Below, piece after piece: positions 22,154-29,773 of a stretch of DNA of 33,210 nucleotides (within the stretch, counting starts at the first letter, position 1; every line of letters begins with the position of its first letter). The stretch is taken from positions 1-33,210 of the IMG/VR virus record IMGVR_UViG_3300031707_000104. One strand, given 5' to 3'. Source of the DNA: a virus. The position numbers and the translations under genes are program-made. Below the pieces are notes generated by a model, which was not told the origin of the DNA, ran no database searches, and saw nothing but the letters and a program-made list of their open reading frames with translations.

Positions 22154-22747
22154 ATGAAAAAATGTTTAATTTGTAAAACCTTAATTTGGGAACGGTCTAC
22201 TTATTGTAAAAAACACGATACTATAAATAGACGCTCTTATAAAGGAATCAACAATCCTAATTATAAAAATGGTAATTCTATTATTAAACATTATTGTCAA
22301 GATTGTAGAAAAGATATAACTCAAAATGCTAAACGATGTAAATTATGTAATCAAAAATATCTATATCCTAAAGGTAGAAAATATTCTAAATGTATCAACT
22401 GTGGCGAAACTACAAAAAGTTATAGAGCTAAAAGATGTGATAAATGTAATGCTATTTATTTAGGTATCAAATTTAGAGGAAAAAATCATCCTTGTTATAT
22501 CGATGGTCAAGGAGATAGTCCTTATACTTTAGAATTTAAATATATTAGAAAAGAAATTTTAATTAGAGATAAATACATTTGTCAAGTATGTAATAAACAA
22601 GGTACTCATGTACATCATATTGATTATAATAAACAGAATTGTGATAAAAATAATTTAATAAGTACTTGTAGTGTTTGCAATTTAAGAGCTAATTTTAATC
22701 GTGATTATTGGTATGCTTGTTTTAAATATATAATGAGGAACAAATGA
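22154..22747 (+). CDS. HNH endonuclease, paralogue of the 12118 gene
   Basis: A 197-residue protein with CxxC pairs (C4/C7, C48/C51, C62/C65, C80/C83, C95/C98) as zinc fingers, NNPNYKNG (33-40), and an HNH domain: C143/C146, HVHHIDYNKQN (152-162), N166/N167 and C172/C175. The ending FNRDYWYACFKYIM closely matches the other HNH gene at DNA level too, suggesting a fairly recent duplication or spread. It lies with no gap after the deformylase gene, and its stop overlaps the M50 protease start (ATGA). Confidence 0.85.
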   Translation: MKKCLICKTLIWERSTYCKKHDTINRRSYKGINNPNYKNGNSIIKHYCQDCRKDITQNAKRCKLCNQKYLYPKGRKYSKCINCGETTKSYRAKRCDKCNAIYLGIKFRGKNHPCYIDGQGDSPYTLEFKYIRKEILIRDKYICQVCNKQGTHVHHIDYNKQNCDKNNLISTCSVCNLRANFNRDYWYACFKYIMRNK

Positions 22748-23319
22748 TGGTATTGTTTTCAATAAGTTTAATAATAAGTATTTTGATACATGAAGCAGGT
22801 CATGCTATTGCTGCAAAATTATGTAACTGTGGAATAACAGAAATAGCAATTGGATTTGGAAAACCTTTATTTAAGAAAAAAATTGGAAATACTGTTTATC
22901 AAATTTGTCCAATATTGTTGGGAGGGTATGTTAAACTTAAAGATGAATTAATAATTAGTAAAGACCCACATGCATTTACTAATTTACCCTATCATAAAAA
23001 ATTTGCTATAACCGTAGCTGGAGTTATTGTTAATATATTAATGGGATTGATTTCTTTGTATTTAGGTAAAATAATTCTTAACTATCAATTATTTTATTTT
23101 GGCTATTTGAGTTTAATATTAGGAATAACTAATCTTCTTCCTATACCTGCATTTGATGGAAGTTATATTTTTTTAGTATGGTTAGAAAAATTTTTTGGAA
23201 AAGAAAAGGGTTATCGAATTATGGAAAAAGTGTGTAGAATAGGATTTATTACTATTATGATTATAAATATACTATGTTTGCCTTTATTAATTTATTATGT
23301 TAAAACAGGAGTTTTATAA
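22744..23319 (+). CDS. M50 intramembrane metalloprotease (SpoIVFB/RseP-like, no PDZ)
   Basis: Site-2-protease-type membrane zinc protease of 191 residues. Seen: HEAGH (16-20) in the first transmembrane helix; ICPILLGGYVKLKDE (54-68), the membrane re-entrant loop motif; NLLPIPAFDGS (130-140), the third zinc ligand Asp138 in the N-x-x-P-x-x-x-DG motif; about four hydrophobic helices. The PDZ domain of RseP and the CBS domain of SpoIVFB are absent, leaving a minimal catalytic unit. All zinc ligands are present, so it should be active. The two leading ATG codons are adjacent; the first forms the ATGA overlap. TAATG-coupled with the next membrane protein. Confidence 0.85.
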   Translation: MMVLFSISLIISILIHEAGHAIAAKLCNCGITEIAIGFGKPLFKKKIGNTVYQICPILLGGYVKLKDELIISKDPHAFTNLPYHKKFAITVAGVIVNILMGLISLYLGKIILNYQLFYFGYLSLILGITNLLPIPAFDGSYIFLVWLEKFFGKEKGYRIMEKVCRIGFITIMIINILCLPLLIYYVKTGVL

Positions 23320-23862: not shown

Positions 23863-24420
23863 GTGAAGAAGAAAATCTCAAGAAAAAGAAAATTTGAACC
23901 AGAATTAAAAGTAGATGATATTTTATTAAAAAATCGTAAATTATTTTTATATGGAGAAATTAGTTCTTTAACTATTCAACCAATAGTTAAAAGTTTAATA
24001 GCATTAAATATTTTAAACACTGAACCAATTTATTTATTTATAAATAGTCCTGGTGGTAGTGTAAGTGATGGTTTTGCTTTAGTTGATACTATTAAATCAT
24101 TAAAAACTCCTGTCTATACTGTTATTATAGGAGAGGCTTGTTCTATGGGTGGATTGATTTCTATTGTAGGAGATGAACGTCTCATGACTAAAAATAGTTT
24201 TTTTATGGCACATGATATGCGTGGTGGTATTCATGGAGATTATTCTGGTAAGGTAGAATATAGAGCTGATTTTATTAAGAAATGTTGGAAGATGATAGAA
24301 GACCATTTAAAAACTTATACAAAATTAACAACACAAGATTTAGTAATTTTGCGTAATGGAGAATTATGGTTAACTCCTCAAGAATGTTTAAATAAAAGTG
24401 TTATAGATAGGATAATTTAA
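23863..24420 (+). CDS. ClpP-like serine protease, copy 1
   Basis: A 185-residue ClpP-fold protein. Seen: INSPGGSVSDG (60-70), nucleophile GEACSMGG with S94, catalytic-type MAHD with H117, and a C-terminal block RNGELWLTPQE. In ClpP the third triad member is an Asp in the equivalent of that last block (ERDRFLSAPEA); by alignment on the Ala/Thr-Pro it is Gly166 here. About 20 residues of basic N-terminal extension replace the axial-loop propeptide. No Clp ATPase is encoded in the window, so it would need a host ClpX/ClpC or act alone. GTG start with AGGAGG signal. Confidence 0.8.
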   Translation: MKKKISRKRKFEPELKVDDILLKNRKLFLYGEISSLTIQPIVKSLIALNILNTEPIYLFINSPGGSVSDGFALVDTIKSLKTPVYTVIIGEACSMGGLISIVGDERLMTKNSFFMAHDMRGGIHGDYSGKVEYRADFIKKCWKMIEDHLKTYTKLTTQDLVILRNGELWLTPQECLNKSVIDRII

Positions 24421-24423
24421 ATT

Positions 24424-24810
24424 ATGTCAATTATAAATAAATTAAAAATTTTAGCTGATAATAATAAAAAAGGCTATCCTTTTTCTGCTTGTATTGAATA
24501 TCAAGGTAGATATTATTATGCAGTTAATGAAGTAACTTCTAAAAAAGACCCTACAGCTCATGCAGAAGTTCAAGCAATAAGATTGGCTTGTAAAAAAGAA
24601 AAAACCTTTAATTTAAATGGGGGTAAAATTTATTCTTCGGGGTCTCCATGCCCCATGTGCCTCACTGCAATTGCTTGGGCAGAAATTAAAGAGGTATATT
24701 ATATTAATCCTTATTATGTAGCATTATCTAATAATTATTATTATGATAGACCTTCTGAAGATGTAAATGAATTTTTAAATTTGAAAAGAATAATTAAACA
24801 AATAAAATGA
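24424..24810 (+). CDS. Cytidine/guanine-type deaminase
   Basis: Zinc deaminase of 128 residues of the CDA superfamily. Seen: DPTAHAEVQAIRLACK (42-57), whose HAE gives the zinc ligand and proton-shuttling Glu, and SPCPMCLTAIAWAEI (74-88), the PCxxC zinc pair. The DPTAHAEV-x-AIR-x-ACK pattern is that of guanine deaminase (GuaD) and close relatives rather than dCMP deaminase. The aromatic C-terminus NPYYVALSNNYYYDRP and ending EDVNEFL also recall GuaD. The likely substrate is guanine or a related purine/pterin. Next to a BT1/MFS transporter gene. Confidence 0.8.
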   Translation: MSIINKLKILADNNKKGYPFSACIEYQGRYYYAVNEVTSKKDPTAHAEVQAIRLACKKEKTFNLNGGKIYSSGSPCPMCLTAIAWAEIKEVYYINPYYVALSNNYYYDRPSEDVNEFLNLKRIIKQIK

Positions 24811-24998
24811 ACCTAAAAGAATATTTAAAAATAAAAATTAAACCCGACACTCAACTAGATTTAGAATTAATTTATCAAGAATTAAGAAATTTGGGTCATC
24901 CTTATATTGATATTTATTGTACTATTAATGAAATTATTATTGAAAATATAAACAAAATATTAGAAGATTACTATAAAAAGAAAAATGAAAATCAATAA
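24807..24998 (+). CDS. Small helical protein, 63 aa
   Basis: ATGA overlap with the deaminase and a 14-nt overlap with the transporter. Product helical and acidic/Ile-rich (LDLELIYQELRNLGHPYIDI, then IENINKILEDYYKK), no membrane segment. No family recognised. Could be a regulatory partner of either neighbour, unproven. Confidence 0.55.
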   Translation: MNLKEYLKIKIKPDTQLDLELIYQELRNLGHPYIDIYCTINEIIIENINKILEDYYKKKNENQ

Positions 24999-26253
24999 AA
25001 AATTATTTTGGATTTATCTACTCTCAGGAGCCATCTATTTTACACAAGGCGTGGAAGGCTTACCTGGACTTAGTTTATTTTTATATCTTAAAGAAAAATT
25101 AGGATTTACTCCAGAAAAAATGATGTTAATTGCATCGATTACTGGAATAGCATGGATTATTAAACCTATCTTTGGCTATCTAATTGATAATTATCTTACT
25201 AAAAAGAAATGGATTGTTTTGTCTCTTTTAGGAAGTATAGGAATTGCTTTATTTATGGGATTAAATCCCATTTTAACTATACCAATCCTTATCCTTACTG
25301 GAATTATAGGAAATTATAATTCAGCTAGTAGAGATGTCGCAACAGATGGAATAATGTGCGTAGAGGGCAAGGAGACCGATAATTGTGATAAAATTCAGGC
25401 TATACAATGGACTTCTATTACTATTGCTTCTATTTTAGTAGGATTGGGTGGAGGATACATTGCAGAACATTTCTCTTATAAAGTAGGATATTTGTGTCTT
25501 ATTCCTATTTATTTACTTATCTTAGGAATTGTATTAAATTATAGAACAGTTGTATCAAAAAATAAAATAAAAGAAGATTCTTGTAATTATTGTAAATTTA
25601 GAATAGATTGTGGGGGAGATGAAAATAATATTTGTCAAGAATTTGAGCCTTTAGTAAAAAAGGTTAGTATTTTAAAAACTATTTATTCATATAAAGAACT
25701 ATTCCAAAATAAACAATTTTTATTAGCATGTTTATTTTTATTTCTTTATAAGTATTCTCCTAGTTTTGGAACCCCTTTAGCTTTTATTGAAAGAGATATT
25801 TTTAAATGGTCTGCTCAATGGCTAGGAACATTAGGAGCAATTATATCTTGTTTTGAAATTCTAGGAGCTATTATATTTTTTAAATTTTGTAAATCAATTA
25901 ATATTAAACGATGGTTGTATATTTCAGTATTTTTAGGAGCTTGTACTACATTATCCTATCTCTATTTTACACCAGTAACTGCTATAGTTTATGGAATTAT
26001 TTATGCTATTATGGGAATGGGAATTCATTTAATAGTAATGTCCTGGATGGCTAAATCAACCTTATCAGGTAAAGAAGCAACATCTTTTGCCTTACTTTGT
26101 TCAATTAATAATTTAGCTGCAGGAACTGCATCTAGTTTAAGTGGAGCATTTTTATTACCTTTAGTAGGATTAAAATTTTTAATAGTTATTTCTGCTTTTA
26201 CTAGTTTTTTGTGTTTACCTATTATTAAAAAATTGGAGATAAAAAATGGATAA
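24985..26253 (+). CDS. BT1-family (folate/biopterin-type) MFS transporter
   Basis: A 422-residue inner-membrane transporter with about 12 hydrophobic helices. Seen: AIYFTQGVEGLPGLSLFLYL (16-35), IAWIIKPIFGYLIDNYL (55-71, the loop 2-3 motif with Asp68), and NSASRDVATDGI (112-123), the signature shared by BT1 folate-biopterin transporters. The central cytoplasmic loop carries C200, C203, C209 and C217 (CNYC then C-x7-C), as if to bind a metal or iron-sulfur cluster. BT1 proteins are known from cyanobacteria, plants, trypanosomatids and some bacteria. A phage-borne complete transporter of this type is unusual. The substrate cannot be read from sequence. Confidence 0.8.
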   Translation: MKINKKLFWIYLLSGAIYFTQGVEGLPGLSLFLYLKEKLGFTPEKMMLIASITGIAWIIKPIFGYLIDNYLTKKKWIVLSLLGSIGIALFMGLNPILTIPILILTGIIGNYNSASRDVATDGIMCVEGKETDNCDKIQAIQWTSITIASILVGLGGGYIAEHFSYKVGYLCLIPIYLLILGIVLNYRTVVSKNKIKEDSCNYCKFRIDCGGDENNICQEFEPLVKKVSILKTIYSYKELFQNKQFLLACLFLFLYKYSPSFGTPLAFIERDIFKWSAQWLGTLGAIISCFEILGAIIFFKFCKSINIKRWLYISVFLGACTTLSYLYFTPVTAIVYGIIYAIMGMGIHLIVMSWMAKSTLSGKEATSFALLCSINNLAAGTASSLSGAFLLPLVGLKFLIVISAFTSFLCLPIIKKLEIKNG

Positions 26254-26893
26254 ATCATTTTTAGAAAAATTTAAAGAAGAAACTAAAGAAGAAATTTCTA
26301 AACTAAATTATAAAAAATATTTTTATCAATTTAGTGAAATAGAAAAAATTAAATTAGTTAAAGAAATGAAAGATATTGAAGTATTTTTTAAAGATGAATT
26401 AGAATTAGATGTTTATCCTATCTACGGTACCTTACTAGGAATGGTAAGGGATGATGATTTTATTGGTTGGGATACCGATGTTGACATGGCTTATTTAAGT
26501 AAATGCAACACAAATAAAGCAGTATTAAATGAATTTAATATGATTTGTAAATTTTTAGAAGAAAAAAAATTATTACTTACTAGAATAAAAACTGCTAGTC
26601 ATTTACACGTGTGGTCTCCAAATAAAGGATTAAGAATTGATTTGTGGATTTCTTGGATGGATAATAAAGGTAAATATCATTTAGTGTGGACTATCAGTGG
26701 AGAAATGGACTCTTCTATAATTTTACCATTTAAAACTATTCAATTTAAAAATTATACATTTCTTCAAATAAATAATCCAGAACAATATTTAAATGAGGCT
26801 TATCATAATTGGAGGATTCCTTTGAGTGGAACAGAAACTGTATGGAAAAAGAAACCTTTTGTATTTGAACTTGAACCCTGGCATGGAAAATAA
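26246..26893 (+). CDS. LicD-family phosphotransferase / nucleotidyltransferase-like
   Basis: A 215-residue LicD/fukutin-type protein. Seen: YPIYGTLLGMVRDDDFIGWD (57-76), DTDVDMAY (76-83) with the metal-binding acids, and LRIDLWISW (129-137) with the third Asp (D132). The family moves phosphocholine or a phospho-alcohol from CDP-linked or similar donors to sugars of teichoic acid or glycans. It is compact, without membrane segments. It overlaps the transporter gene by 8 nt. A TagD-like cytidylyltransferase gene lies 2.4 kb downstream, so the donor could be made by the phage itself. Confidence 0.8.
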   Translation: MDKSFLEKFKEETKEEISKLNYKKYFYQFSEIEKIKLVKEMKDIEVFFKDELELDVYPIYGTLLGMVRDDDFIGWDTDVDMAYLSKCNTNKAVLNEFNMICKFLEEKKLLLTRIKTASHLHVWSPNKGLRIDLWISWMDNKGKYHLVWTISGEMDSSIILPFKTIQFKNYTFLQINNPEQYLNEAYHNWRIPLSGTETVWKKKPFVFELEPWHGK

Positions 26894-26903
26894 AGGAGGA
26901 AAA

Positions 26904-27545
26904 ATGAATAAATTTTATCGAGATAATGAAGATGAAGAAATAACAGAACAAGAAGAAACTATCAGTAAAAAAGAAGAAAAATATACTGAAGAATTTTATT
27001 TTAGAATTCTTAACCATCATAGGTATATTTTGCTTTACGATGTAATTAATAATGTATCTGCAGATGTAGTAGTTTCTAAATTAATTGCTATGAATATTTT
27101 AAACAAAAAAGAACCTATTTATCTAGAAATAAACAGTCCAGGTGGGTCTGTTTCTGATGGTATTTCTATTATTAATGCAATAGAAAAAATAGAAGCTCCT
27201 GTAATTACAGTAATATCTGGGCAAGCATGTAGTATGGCTGCTTTAATCAGTATTGTAGGAGATAGAAGGTATATTTATCATAATTCTTATTGGATGCAGC
27301 ACAGTACTGCAGATGTAGTTGGAGATTATATTCAATATATTAAAGATAGAGTTAGGTTTTTGGGAGAGTTTGAAGCTCGTACAGAAAGAATTTTAAGAGA
27401 AAAAACAAAATTAACTAAAATGGATTTACATAAAATTAGAAGTGGTGAACTTTGGGTAAATGCTGAACAATCATTACTTAAAGGTATAGTAGATAAAATA
27501 ATTCAACCCAAATCTAAAAAGAAAATAATTAAAAGTTCTTTTTAA
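26904..27545 (+). CDS. ClpP-like serine protease, copy 2
   Basis: A 213-residue ClpP-fold protein and paralogue of the 23863 gene, sharing NSPGGSVSDG and the GELW-end block. Seen: EINSPGGSVSDG (75-86), QACSMAA with S110, YWMQHS with H133, and KIRSGELWVNAEQ near 178-190, in which the usual triad Asp is Gly (aligned), as in copy 1. A charged N-terminal extension (residues 1-30, Glu/Lys-rich) precedes the fold. The ATG at 26904 has AAAGGAGG and is preferred over an in-frame ATG at 26826 inside the LicD gene. Copies 1 and 2 could form a mixed ring, as in some chloroplast and actinobacterial ClpP systems. Confidence 0.8.
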   Translation: MNKFYRDNEDEEITEQEETISKKEEKYTEEFYFRILNHHRYILLYDVINNVSADVVVSKLIAMNILNKKEPIYLEINSPGGSVSDGISIINAIEKIEAPVITVISGQACSMAALISIVGDRRYIYHNSYWMQHSTADVVGDYIQYIKDRVRFLGEFEARTERILREKTKLTKMDLHKIRSGELWVNAEQSLLKGIVDKIIQPKSKKKIIKSSF

Positions 27546-27554
27546 AGGAAATTT

Positions 27555-28091
27555 ATGGATATTTATTTCGTATCTGATTTTCATCTCGGTCATTTTAATA
27601 TAATACGTTATACAAATAGACCCTTCTCTGCTTTAGAAGAAATGGATTCCGTTATAATTAGAAAATTTAATGAACGAGTAAAAGAAGATGATTTAGTTTT
27701 CTTTTTGGGAGATTTCTGCATGAAAACTTCATCTGAAGCAAAAGAAGCTCCTAAAAATGCTTTTGAATATTATCGTAGTCAATTAATATGTAAAAATATT
27801 ATATTTATTCGTGGAAATCATGATAATAATAATTCTACCAAAACTCCAATAGAATCTATTGTTATCAATCATGGAGGGGAACGGATTTATTTAACCCATA
27901 ATCCTAAGTATGCCAAAAAAGATTTTCATTTAAATTTCTGTGGACATGTTCATGATAAATGGAAATTCCAAAAAATAGACAGAAATTCTTATATAGTTAA
28001 TCTTTCAGTAGAAAATTGGGATTATTATCCTATTACTTTTAATGAAATTAATCAACATTTTTCTATTTGGAGAAAATCAGGAGAAAAATGA
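27555..28091 (+). CDS. Metallophosphoesterase, calcineurin-like
   Basis: Two-metal phosphoesterase of 178 residues. Seen: SDFHLGH (7-13) with D8 and H10; LGDF (51-54); RGNHD (86-90); LTHNP (113-117); CGHVHDKW (129-136). All five motifs are intact, unlike the SbcD-like protein. Small stand-alone phage members act on phosphodiesters or phosphomonoesters, and the substrate is unknown. Lying between the ClpP-like and SDR genes in the wall/lipid block, it could hydrolyse a nucleotide-linked intermediate. AAAGGAA binding site; ATGA overlap with the next gene. Confidence 0.8.
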   Translation: MDIYFVSDFHLGHFNIIRYTNRPFSALEEMDSVIIRKFNERVKEDDLVFFLGDFCMKTSSEAKEAPKNAFEYYRSQLICKNIIFIRGNHDNNNSTKTPIESIVINHGGERIYLTHNPKYAKKDFHLNFCGHVHDKWKFQKIDRNSYIVNLSVENWDYYPITFNEINQHFSIWRKSGEK

Positions 28092-28825
28092 AAGCATTAA
28101 TTACAGGAAGTACAAAAGGTATAGGAAAACAAATAGGTATAGATTTATTAGATAAAGATTATTTTGTTTATTTTAATGGACATACACAAGAATCTACAAA
28201 AAAATTAGAAAAAGAAATTTCTTATAGAGATTGTGATACAGATTATCTTCCTACGTTTAATATTGTTTGTCAGGATTTATCTACTATAGAATCCAATATT
28301 AGTTTAGGAAATTATTTTAAAGAAAATAATAAGTATTTAGATGTATTGGTTCTTAATTTAGGTATAACAGATAGAACTCCTTTTGGAGAAATTAAACCTT
28401 CTGAATGGAATAAAGTATTAGAAACTAATTTATCTGGAGCGTTTTTCTTAATTCAATCTTTAAAAGATAACATAAATGAAAATGGAAAAATAATATTTAT
28501 AAGTTCTATTTCTGGATGCACTACAGATTCAACTTCTATTGCTTATGGAGTCTCAAAAGGAGCAATCCATATTTTGGTACCTTATCTTGCTAAAGAATTT
28601 GCTGATAAGAAGATTACAGTAAATGCTGTAGCACCTGGATATATAGTAACAGAATGGCATAAAGACAAATCTAAGGCACAACTCAAGAGAATAGAAAAGA
28701 AATGTCTTGCTAATAGATTAGGTATTCCAGAAGAGGTTTCTAAGGTAGTTTTGGCGATTATTGATAATGATTTTATTAATGCTCAAATCATAAGAGTAGA
28801 TGGAGGTTTCGGATGCAAATTATAG
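28088..28825 (+). CDS. Short-chain dehydrogenase/reductase
   Basis: NAD(P)-dependent oxidoreductase of 245 residues. Seen: TGSTKGIGK (6-14), the dinucleotide-binding Gly motif; LNLG (89-92) in place of NNAG; N114; SSISG (139-143) with the catalytic Ser; YGVSK (153-157); and NAVAPGYIVTEW (179-190). Closest in style to 3-oxoacyl-ACP reductase (FabG) and alditol dehydrogenases, but substrate specificity cannot be told. Complete and likely active. ATG at 28088 with AGGAG signal is preferred over an upstream in-frame start at 28067. Overlaps the next gene by 13 nt. Confidence 0.85.
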   Translation: MKALITGSTKGIGKQIGIDLLDKDYFVYFNGHTQESTKKLEKEISYRDCDTDYLPTFNIVCQDLSTIESNISLGNYFKENNKYLDVLVLNLGITDRTPFGEIKPSEWNKVLETNLSGAFFLIQSLKDNINENGKIIFISSISGCTTDSTSIAYGVSKGAIHILVPYLAKEFADKKITVNAVAPGYIVTEWHKDKSKAQLKRIEKKCLANRLGIPEEVSKVVLAIIDNDFINAQIIRVDGGFGCKL

Positions 28826-29319
28826 AATTTAATCCCAAATTATTAGAAGATTTTTTTAATATTAAAGTTAGAGAAGCATGTAAAAGTTGTAAAAGATTTG
28901 GAAAAAAAGTCACCTGTCCTCCTTATATAGATTCTATTGATTACTATAAAAATCTTTTACCTTATTATCGGTATGGAGTATTAATTATAGAAAAATTTTT
29001 AATAAAAGACTATACCATGTCTACTTGGCAAGAATTAGGTGCTTATTCTAGCAAAATTATTCATAATCAATTATTAGAAGAAAGAAATAAATTATTAGAA
29101 AGAGGGATTTTTTCCATTATATTTGGGGCAGGGTCTTGTAAATTCTGTTCAGAAATTTGTACATTTCCATGTAAACATCCTGAAAAATCTGTAGTGCCTA
29201 TTGAAGCAACAGGGTTAGATGTTATAGGTTTAGTTTATGAATTAACAAAAATAGAACTAAAATTTCCTGTAGAAAACCAAGGATTTTTTTATAGAATAGG
29301 AATGATGCTTTATGATTAA
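28813..29319 (+). CDS. DUF2284-like cysteine-rich metal protein
   Basis: A 168-residue protein matching from memory the DUF2284 predicted metal-binding family: C23-x-x-C26 and C35-PP at the N-terminus, then GAGSCKFC (106-112), C116 and C120 near the C-terminus, and a conserved EATGLDVIGL (132-141). Seven cysteines suggest an iron-sulfur or zinc site. The family is typical of anaerobes and methanogens, and its activity is not established. It overlaps both neighbours (13 and 8 nt). A role with the SDR is possible by co-transcription only. Confidence 0.7.
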   Translation: MQIIEFNPKLLEDFFNIKVREACKSCKRFGKKVTCPPYIDSIDYYKNLLPYYRYGVLIIEKFLIKDYTMSTWQELGAYSSKIIHNQLLEERNKLLERGIFSIIFGAGSCKFCSEICTFPCKHPEKSVVPIEATGLDVIGLVYELTKIELKFPVENQGFFYRIGMMLYD

Positions 29320-29773
29320 CAAAAAAATAATCTATACTAGCGGAACTTATGACCTTTTTCATTTTGGACATTTAAATATTCTTCTTAAAGCCAAAGCATT
29401 AGGAGATTATTTAATTGTAGGAGTTTCTACTGATTCTCTTATTACAAAATACAAAGGAATAAAACCAATTATTTCTTATAAAGATAGAGTAACTATTATT
29501 GAACAATTAAAATGTGTAGATAAAGTAATCAAACAAGATAAGTTTTTTGACATAAAACAATTAAAAAAATATAAGATTTCAACAATTGTATTAGGAGATG
29601 ATTGGAAGGATAAATCTTTTCCTGAATTAGAAAAATGCCTTAAAAAGTTAAATATTAAAATGATTTATGTACCATATACTAAAAGACTATCAACATCTAA
29701 AATAAAAGAAACAATAATTCGTAATGCTGTAGAAATTATTGAAGCCCAAACTAAGCGAATAAAAAAACTTTAA
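29312..29773 (+). CDS. tagD: Glycerol-3-phosphate cytidylyltransferase-like (TagD family)
   Basis: Nucleotidyltransferase of 153 residues. Seen: GTYDLFHFGH (11-20) containing the H-x-G-H catalytic pair, VGVSTDSL (37-43), LGDDWKDK (94-101), and YTKRLSTSKIK (122-132), matching the R-x-x-x-S-T-T/S end. These fit TagD, which makes CDP-glycerol from CTP and glycerol-3-phosphate. Length slightly exceeds the usual 129-132 residues because of a C-terminal helix. Together with the LicD-like gene it could provide a donor and a transfer step for decorating host wall polymers. Substrate may be another phospho-alcohol. ATG lies just before the preceding stop. Confidence 0.8.
   Translation: MINKKIIYTSGTYDLFHFGHLNILLKAKALGDYLIVGVSTDSLITKYKGIKPIISYKDRVTIIEQLKCVDKVIKQDKFFDIKQLKKYKISTIVLGDDWKDKSFPELEKCLKKLNIKMIYVPYTKRLSTSKIKETIIRNAVEIIEAQTKRIKKL

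Follow-up and report, generated by a model that had tools for sequence, protein, structure and literature searches.

The DNA stretch analyzed here, to which we refer as the window, is a virus record of IMG/VR (IMGVR_UViG_3300031707_000104) of 33,210 bases. Next to phage genes for a primase/helicase, a UvsX-like recombinase, a family-B DNA polymerase and SbcCD-like proteins, it carries a putative cassette for the decoration of surface molecules, which is the subject of this study. A first-pass annotation had named five genes of the cassette between positions 26246 and 29773, and all five were found to be intact open reading frames (ORFs) in the places assigned to them, each scoring above its Pfam cut-off. 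Two neighbors were missing from that annotation, a ClpP-like protease within the span and an MFS transporter upstream. The genes are the following:

24985..26253, plus strand: MFS transporter, BT1/AmpG-like (PF03092, 66.2 bits)
26246..26893, plus strand: LicD-type phospho-alcohol transferase (PF04991, 28.3 bits, cut-off 22.6 bits)
26904..27545, plus strand: ClpP-like serine protease (PF00574, 109.6 bits)
27555..28091, plus strand: metallophosphoesterase, MPE (PF12850/PF00149; phrog_547, 129 bits)
28088..28825, plus strand: short-chain reductase, SDR (PF13561, 124.7 bits)
28813..29319, plus strand: DUF2284 predicted metal-binding protein (PF10050, 74.7 bits, cut-off 25 bits)
29312..29773, plus strand: TagD-fold cytidylyltransferase (PF01467, 79.8 bits, cut-off 21 bits)

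The end of the MFS gene overlaps licD by 8 bases. Within the span 26246-29773, overlaps occur between MPE and SDR (4 bases), SDR and DUF2284 (13 bases) and DUF2284 and TagD (8 bases), and nowhere else. In total and third-position G+C, the cassette differs little from the remainder of the window. In comparison to the related phage G002 (IMGVR 3300030613_000016), the ratio of nonsynonymous to synonymous substitutions (dN/dS) was about 0.17-0.42 in each of the cassette genes compared, a set without MPE and ClpP, and these genes are under purifying selection. Since the gene order is also kept in this relative, we conclude that the grouping is more than chance.

Because the PF04991 match of the LicD protein covers only a 30-residue core (residues 53-82), we examined its active site. 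The motif GTLLG...R...FI.WD.D.D is present (G61-G65, R68, D76/D78/D80), together with the downstream D132 of the nucleotidyltransferase fold. Residues D76, D78, D80 and D132 align with Asp360, Asp362, Asp364 and Asp416 of human FKRP, which are the metal ligands of that enzyme (PMC6965139), and all four are kept. A profile of 19 LicD proteins found human FKRP as the sole PDB sequence (E 1.3e-14). An AlphaFold model of LicD from 19 rows reached a pLDDT of 79 and a pTM of 0.76, and its 13 best PDB fold matches were all FKRP chains (E 8.5e-7, TM 0.55 by query length, about 18% identity); an earlier model from 5 rows (pLDDT 51) was set aside. Alignment and structure modeling, the latter suggested by the first-pass annotation, together show a complete FKRP-type site and fold in LicD. 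FKRP and fukutin use cytidine diphosphate (CDP)-ribitol, and FKRP transfers ribitol phosphate (PMC4873967, PMC6965139). LicD enzymes transfer phosphate together with the alcohol (PMC4873967), and a known capsule polymerase that acts on polyol phosphates also belongs to the LicD family (PMC11666461).

We compared the cassette with those of two sister phages, G002 and G003 (IMGVR 3300032797_000152). G002 has the same order as the window, MFS-LicD-ClpP-MPE-SDR-DUF2284-TagD, with an inserted HNH gene and a small glycosyltransferase that overlaps the end of TagD. G003 retains MFS-LicD-ClpP-MPE, and no SDR, DUF2284 or TagD gene was found in its record, a fragment. Between licD and ClpP, G003 encodes a 416-aa fusion protein (L011:10629-11879) that begins within the last licD codons and consists of an IspD domain (PF01128, E 7e-29) and an SDR domain (PF00106, E 7e-27). 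Only because of its fusion to the SDR do we read the IspD domain as being of the CDP-ribitol type. Bcs1 of Haemophilus influenzae, which has the same IspD-SDR architecture, reduces ribulose-5-phosphate and makes CDP-ribitol (PMC10299916), and some bacterial ISPD homologs form fusions with reductases of this kind or with LicD (PMC4873967).

The MFS gene directly precedes licD in all three phages (69-72% identity). Across the three, LicD and MFS are 69-79% identical, which is above the replication genes (41-63%; RecA 43-63%, PolB 52%, SbcC 44%, deformylase 41-52%). G002 and G003 share the most similar LicD pair (78.5%), whereas their RecA and deformylase proteins are 43% and 41% identical, respectively. 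In searches of viral contigs, the IspD-SDR fusion matched only its own contig and MFS had no matches; tblastn of LicD and MFS in phages and a DNA search of the cassette against GenBank phages likewise gave no match. ClpP lies between licD and MPE in all three phages and is less conserved than licD. The window encodes two ClpP-like proteases (23863-24420 and 26904-27545), both away from the head genes, and only the second clearly stays beside licD in the relatives. As MPE and ClpP both stay when the donor module changes, they are probably bystanders. MPE had previously been counted among the pathway members, an assignment that is not supported, given that G003 retains MPE without SDR-DUF2284-TagD. 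Relatives keeping only one of the genes would have counted, for the first-pass annotation, against its proposal; we observed no one-by-one loss, as G002 has all of them and the donor module of G003 is swapped. The simplest reading would be one transferase with one kind of donor and two unrelated synthesis routes, and we infer that the CDP-polyol modules are interchangeable and feed a transporter and transferase that stay constant.

On the donor side, the protein encoded at 29312 shares the motifs HxGH (H17/H20), GDDW (D97/W98) and ST (S127/T128) with TagD of Bacillus subtilis wall teichoic acid synthesis (PDB 1coz), which matches it with E 2.5e-22, and it is 89-90% identical in G002. Its best PDB relatives include ethanolamine-phosphate (E 2e-25) and glycerol-3-phosphate cytidylyltransferases. 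TagD had been expected to make CDP-glycerol. However, the window enzyme reached only 95.7 bits against TIGR01518 (glycerol-3-phosphate cytidylyltransferase; cut-off 165.4 bits), while TagD of an unrelated phage contig (L003), serving as a control, passed with 169.1 bits. In the alignment, Arg63 of TagD corresponds to Lys67 and Arg113 to Tyr122, both arginines presumably having a role in phosphate binding. Because of the score below the cut-off we do not equate the enzyme with TagD; judged by its sequence, it is a TagD-fold protein for which specificity for glycerol-3-phosphate is not supported.

The SDR starts with an ATG at 28088, overlapping the MPE stop, and is 71% identical in G002. Its cofactor motif G-x3-GIG is intact from residue 7, and Y153-x3-K is present. 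No specific subfamily cut-off was reached among the models listed, and the best model, elongation factor P reductase YmfI, was rejected (140.7 vs. cut-off 238). A kinase was not found among the neighboring genes scanned (23863-29773), where the SDR stands in that place. All seven cysteines of DUF2284 (23, 26, 35, 109, 112, 116 and 120) are kept in G002; as a guess, this protein may serve the reduction step.

These enzymes could run the same pathway with a group other than a pentitol, namely glycerol phosphate, phosphocholine or phosphoethanolamine, or a phosphonate alcohol. TagD-fold enzymes span such substrates, and ethanolamine-phosphate and glycerol-3-phosphate enzymes are among the PDB relatives; the window enzyme shares a PYT motif with the phosphonate cytidylyltransferase domain of Fom1, and in other phages choline or phosphonate genes accompany LicD (see below). 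We nevertheless consider such a substrate rather unlikely, given that an SDR is present and a kinase is not, that the window and the searched stretches of G002 and G003 yielded no phosphoenolpyruvate (PEP) mutase homolog and that in G003 the supplier of the nearly identical LicD would be an IspD-SDR fusion of CDP-ribitol type.

A homolog of the window TagD (E 1e-20 or better) is encoded in 27 of 399 Bacillota genomes. We analyzed 20 TagD-homolog loci of 9-16 kb, excluding G001, which was found through its LicD, together with 20 control stretches placed arbitrarily in some of these same genomes, with several taken from each. LicD occurred within 16 kb of the TagD homolog in 7/20 loci, in comparison to 0/20 controls (Fisher P = 0.008). 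In one locus that was found through LicD and not counted, LicD-TagD lies beside a polymerase, glycosyltransferases and a flippase in a capsule-type cluster, and in a Neomarinimicrobiota locus LicD adjoins an IspD-like gene. The bacterial linkage bears on a further explanation, in which the cassette would be a row of unrelated morons, i.e., a cofactor-type nucleotidyltransferase, a FabG-like reductase, a metallophosphoesterase and a nucleotidyltransferase-fold protein. While SDRs are promiscuous, with no subfamily cut-off passed here, and MPE and ClpP are common in phages, the order and overlaps are kept in G002, a fusion protein with the same two activities takes the place of the block in G003, TagD homologs are linked to LicD in bacteria, and several phages pair LicD independently with a cytidylyltransferase. 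We therefore regard an accidental row of genes as very unlikely.

Other phages also pair LicD with a cytidylyltransferase, and their predicted donors differ: glycerol phosphate, a phosphonate and, in cultured Vibrio phages, phosphocholine. In L003, TagD and LicD lie ahead of the portal gene; a second, HldE-like nucleotidyltransferase gene (L003 4013-4747) directly precedes the TagD gene, and a methyltransferase-like gene lies between TagD and LicD. L004 and L005 encode a cytidylyltransferase-PEP mutase fusion (split ORFs in L005), a class V aminotransferase, pieces of a decarboxylase of the thiamine pyrophosphate enzyme type, two LicD genes and glycosyltransferases; the decarboxylase ORF of L004 also contains a fused HNH endonuclease. 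In L110 (MT121964), IspD overlaps LicD, an arrangement published for the 'Flandersviridae'. In the Vibrio phages 1.031.O and 150E35-1, three overlapping genes encode LicD, a BCCT choline-type transporter and a protein in which a cytidylyltransferase is fused to a choline kinase; existing annotations call the products only 'coil', 'TMhelix' and 'LicD'. The cassettes are located as follows:

L004 6052-19847 and L005 4454-19563: phosphonate cassettes (IMGVR 3300033148_004210 and _005240)
L114 5611-8609: phosphocholine operon of Vibrio phage 1.031.O (MG592415, record 46171-49169)
L116 1911-4912: phosphocholine operon (OX241562)

A TagD-fold enzyme without a LicD match was found in L006/L007, L008 and L009. 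Short contigs labeled 'Listeria/Staphylococcus phage' with LicD, TagD or IspD were not counted, since they stem from wastewater assemblies and may be bacterial. In Synechococcus phage S-CAM7 (NC_031927; L115 8570-16245), an unannotated LicD gene forms part of a sugar-nucleotide and glycosyltransferase cluster a short way upstream of a tail-fiber gene. Among cultured phages, those that carry a related LicD have Gram-negative hosts, Vibrio and Synechococcus. PolB of the window is distantly T4/cyanophage-like and its recombinase UvsX-like, which does not assign a host.

Taken together, the genes of the cassette very probably serve to activate a small alcohol in phosphorylated form and to link it to a molecule that bears sugars, and a phage-borne surface-decoration pathway with a CDP-polyol donor appears to us the probable full explanation. 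In this pathway, the SDR (28088) would reduce a ketose phosphate to a polyol phosphate, which the TagD-fold enzyme (29312) would couple to cytidine triphosphate; the resulting CDP-polyol would most likely be CDP-ribitol or closely related to it. As the final step, LicD (26246) would transfer the polyol phosphate to a glycan hydroxyl, while transport of a precursor or product across the membrane, inward or outward, is probably the task of the MFS protein (24985). The IspD-SDR fusion of G003 would supply a nearly identical LicD with a CDP-polyol of the same kind. The acceptor would be a glycan of the host envelope and the benefit a change of the host receptor, e.g., superinfection exclusion. The part of the earlier proposal by which the phage makes and attaches a phospho-alcohol is thus upheld by the LicD site and fold, the swap in G003 and the bacterial TagD-LicD loci, whereas its CDP-glycerol and wall teichoic acid are not. 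The latter had been an assumption only, and no TagA/B/F-type genes were found among the window proteins scanned.

With the same chemistry, the acceptor might instead be a component of the phage, such as a tail fiber or another virion glycan. The LicD of S-CAM7 in its glycosyltransferase cluster near a tail-fiber gene and the small glycosyltransferase after TagD in G002 would fit such an acceptor. We judge it quite improbable, as the neighbors of the cassette in the window are replication genes (SbcCD, deformylase, ClpP), the MFS transporter linked to it points to traffic at the envelope and none of the virion genes, which lie on the opposite strand, can be assigned a role in glycosylation.

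Several observations weigh against a CDP-polyol pathway acting on the host envelope. The clade consists of three incomplete contigs, with the SDR-DUF2284-TagD module in two, and the record of G003, where the module is absent, is a fragment. The IspD domain of G003 reaches neither the ispD nor the ribitol cut-off, and the failure against TIGR01518 leaves room for another phospho-alcohol or a phosphonate as substrate of the TagD-fold enzyme. DUF2284, to which no role is assignable, fits nowhere in the proposed scheme. Two unrelated genes lie between licD and the donor module. Finally, bacterial homologs of the MFS transporter numbered 0 in 389 genomes, in a search of one phylum without a positive control.

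The window pathway is very probably a bacterial relative of the ISPD/FKRP pathway of human muscle. The ISPD-FKTN/FKRP system of human dystroglycan (PMC4873967, PMC6965139) likewise has a LicD-fold transferase, whose four aspartates match those of the window, and the IspD-SDR of G003 would feed LicD as ISPD feeds FKRP; unlike this system, the window has a TagD-fold enzyme and a separate SDR, and no dystroglycan. The lic1 loci (transporter, kinase, LicC and LicD) likewise combine a transporter, donor activation and LicD, but the window has an SDR and no kinase, its MFS protein is not a choline transporter and its cytidylyltransferase is TagD-fold rather than LicC-type. The window therefore does not hold the four lic1 functions, whereas the operons of Vibrio phages 1.031.O and 150E35-1 do, and phosphocholine decoration is predicted. 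Phosphonate tailoring clusters (Ppm-PntC-LicD, PMC6697681), the type seen in L004/L005, share a cytidylyltransferase and a LicD-like transferase with the window but differ in their PEP mutase, of which no homolog was found in the records of the clade.

A phage LicD next to a cytidylyltransferase and a role of LicD in superinfection are already published for the ispD+licD insertion of the 'Flandersviridae' (Benler et al. 2021, PMC8008677). That enzyme is IspD-fold, not TagD-fold, and comes without SDR or MFS; the consulted part of the paper leaves IspD unexplained and does not name CDP-ribitol. The following are new, as far as our searches show: a version built from TagD-fold, SDR and DUF2284 proteins; the exchange of the donor module while MFS and LicD stay constant; the interpretation of the phage IspD as activating a polyol; and the phosphocholine operon of the Vibrio phages. 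For the last of these we found no paper in the open-access literature, although no search was aimed at the operon, and literature searches on CDP-arabinitol/mannitol and on phage phosphonate synthesis yielded nothing concerning phages.

Among other features of the window, a site-2-protease-like peptidase M50 gene (22744-23319) has homologs in G002 and G003, and no tRNA was found. Many HNH-type homing endonuclease-like genes are scattered between the phage genes:

10-606, 3550-4134, 7159-7686, 8256-8951, 12103-12717 and 22154-22747: HNH-type genes

We tentatively propose a general class of LicD-centered modular decoration, in which the transferase and transporter would be kept and the module for the activated group exchanged. 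The modules would be SDR-DUF2284-TagD or IspD-SDR for polyols, TagD for glycerol, choline kinase-cytidylyltransferase with BCCT for choline and PEP mutase-cytidylyltransferase for phosphonates. The clade itself would then hold two non-homologous routes to the same CDP-polyol, with DUF2284 as a new component of one. The swap also suggests an answer for the IspD of the 'Flandersviridae', which would be a probable polyol activator, e.g., a CDP-ribitol synthase, and not an enzyme of isoprenoid synthesis. It makes the question testable, and the cultured Vibrio phages with the phosphocholine operon provide a growable system. Phage receptors are often cell-surface glycans. If our reading is true, the repainting of receptors with phospho-alcohols would alter which phages infect the cell.

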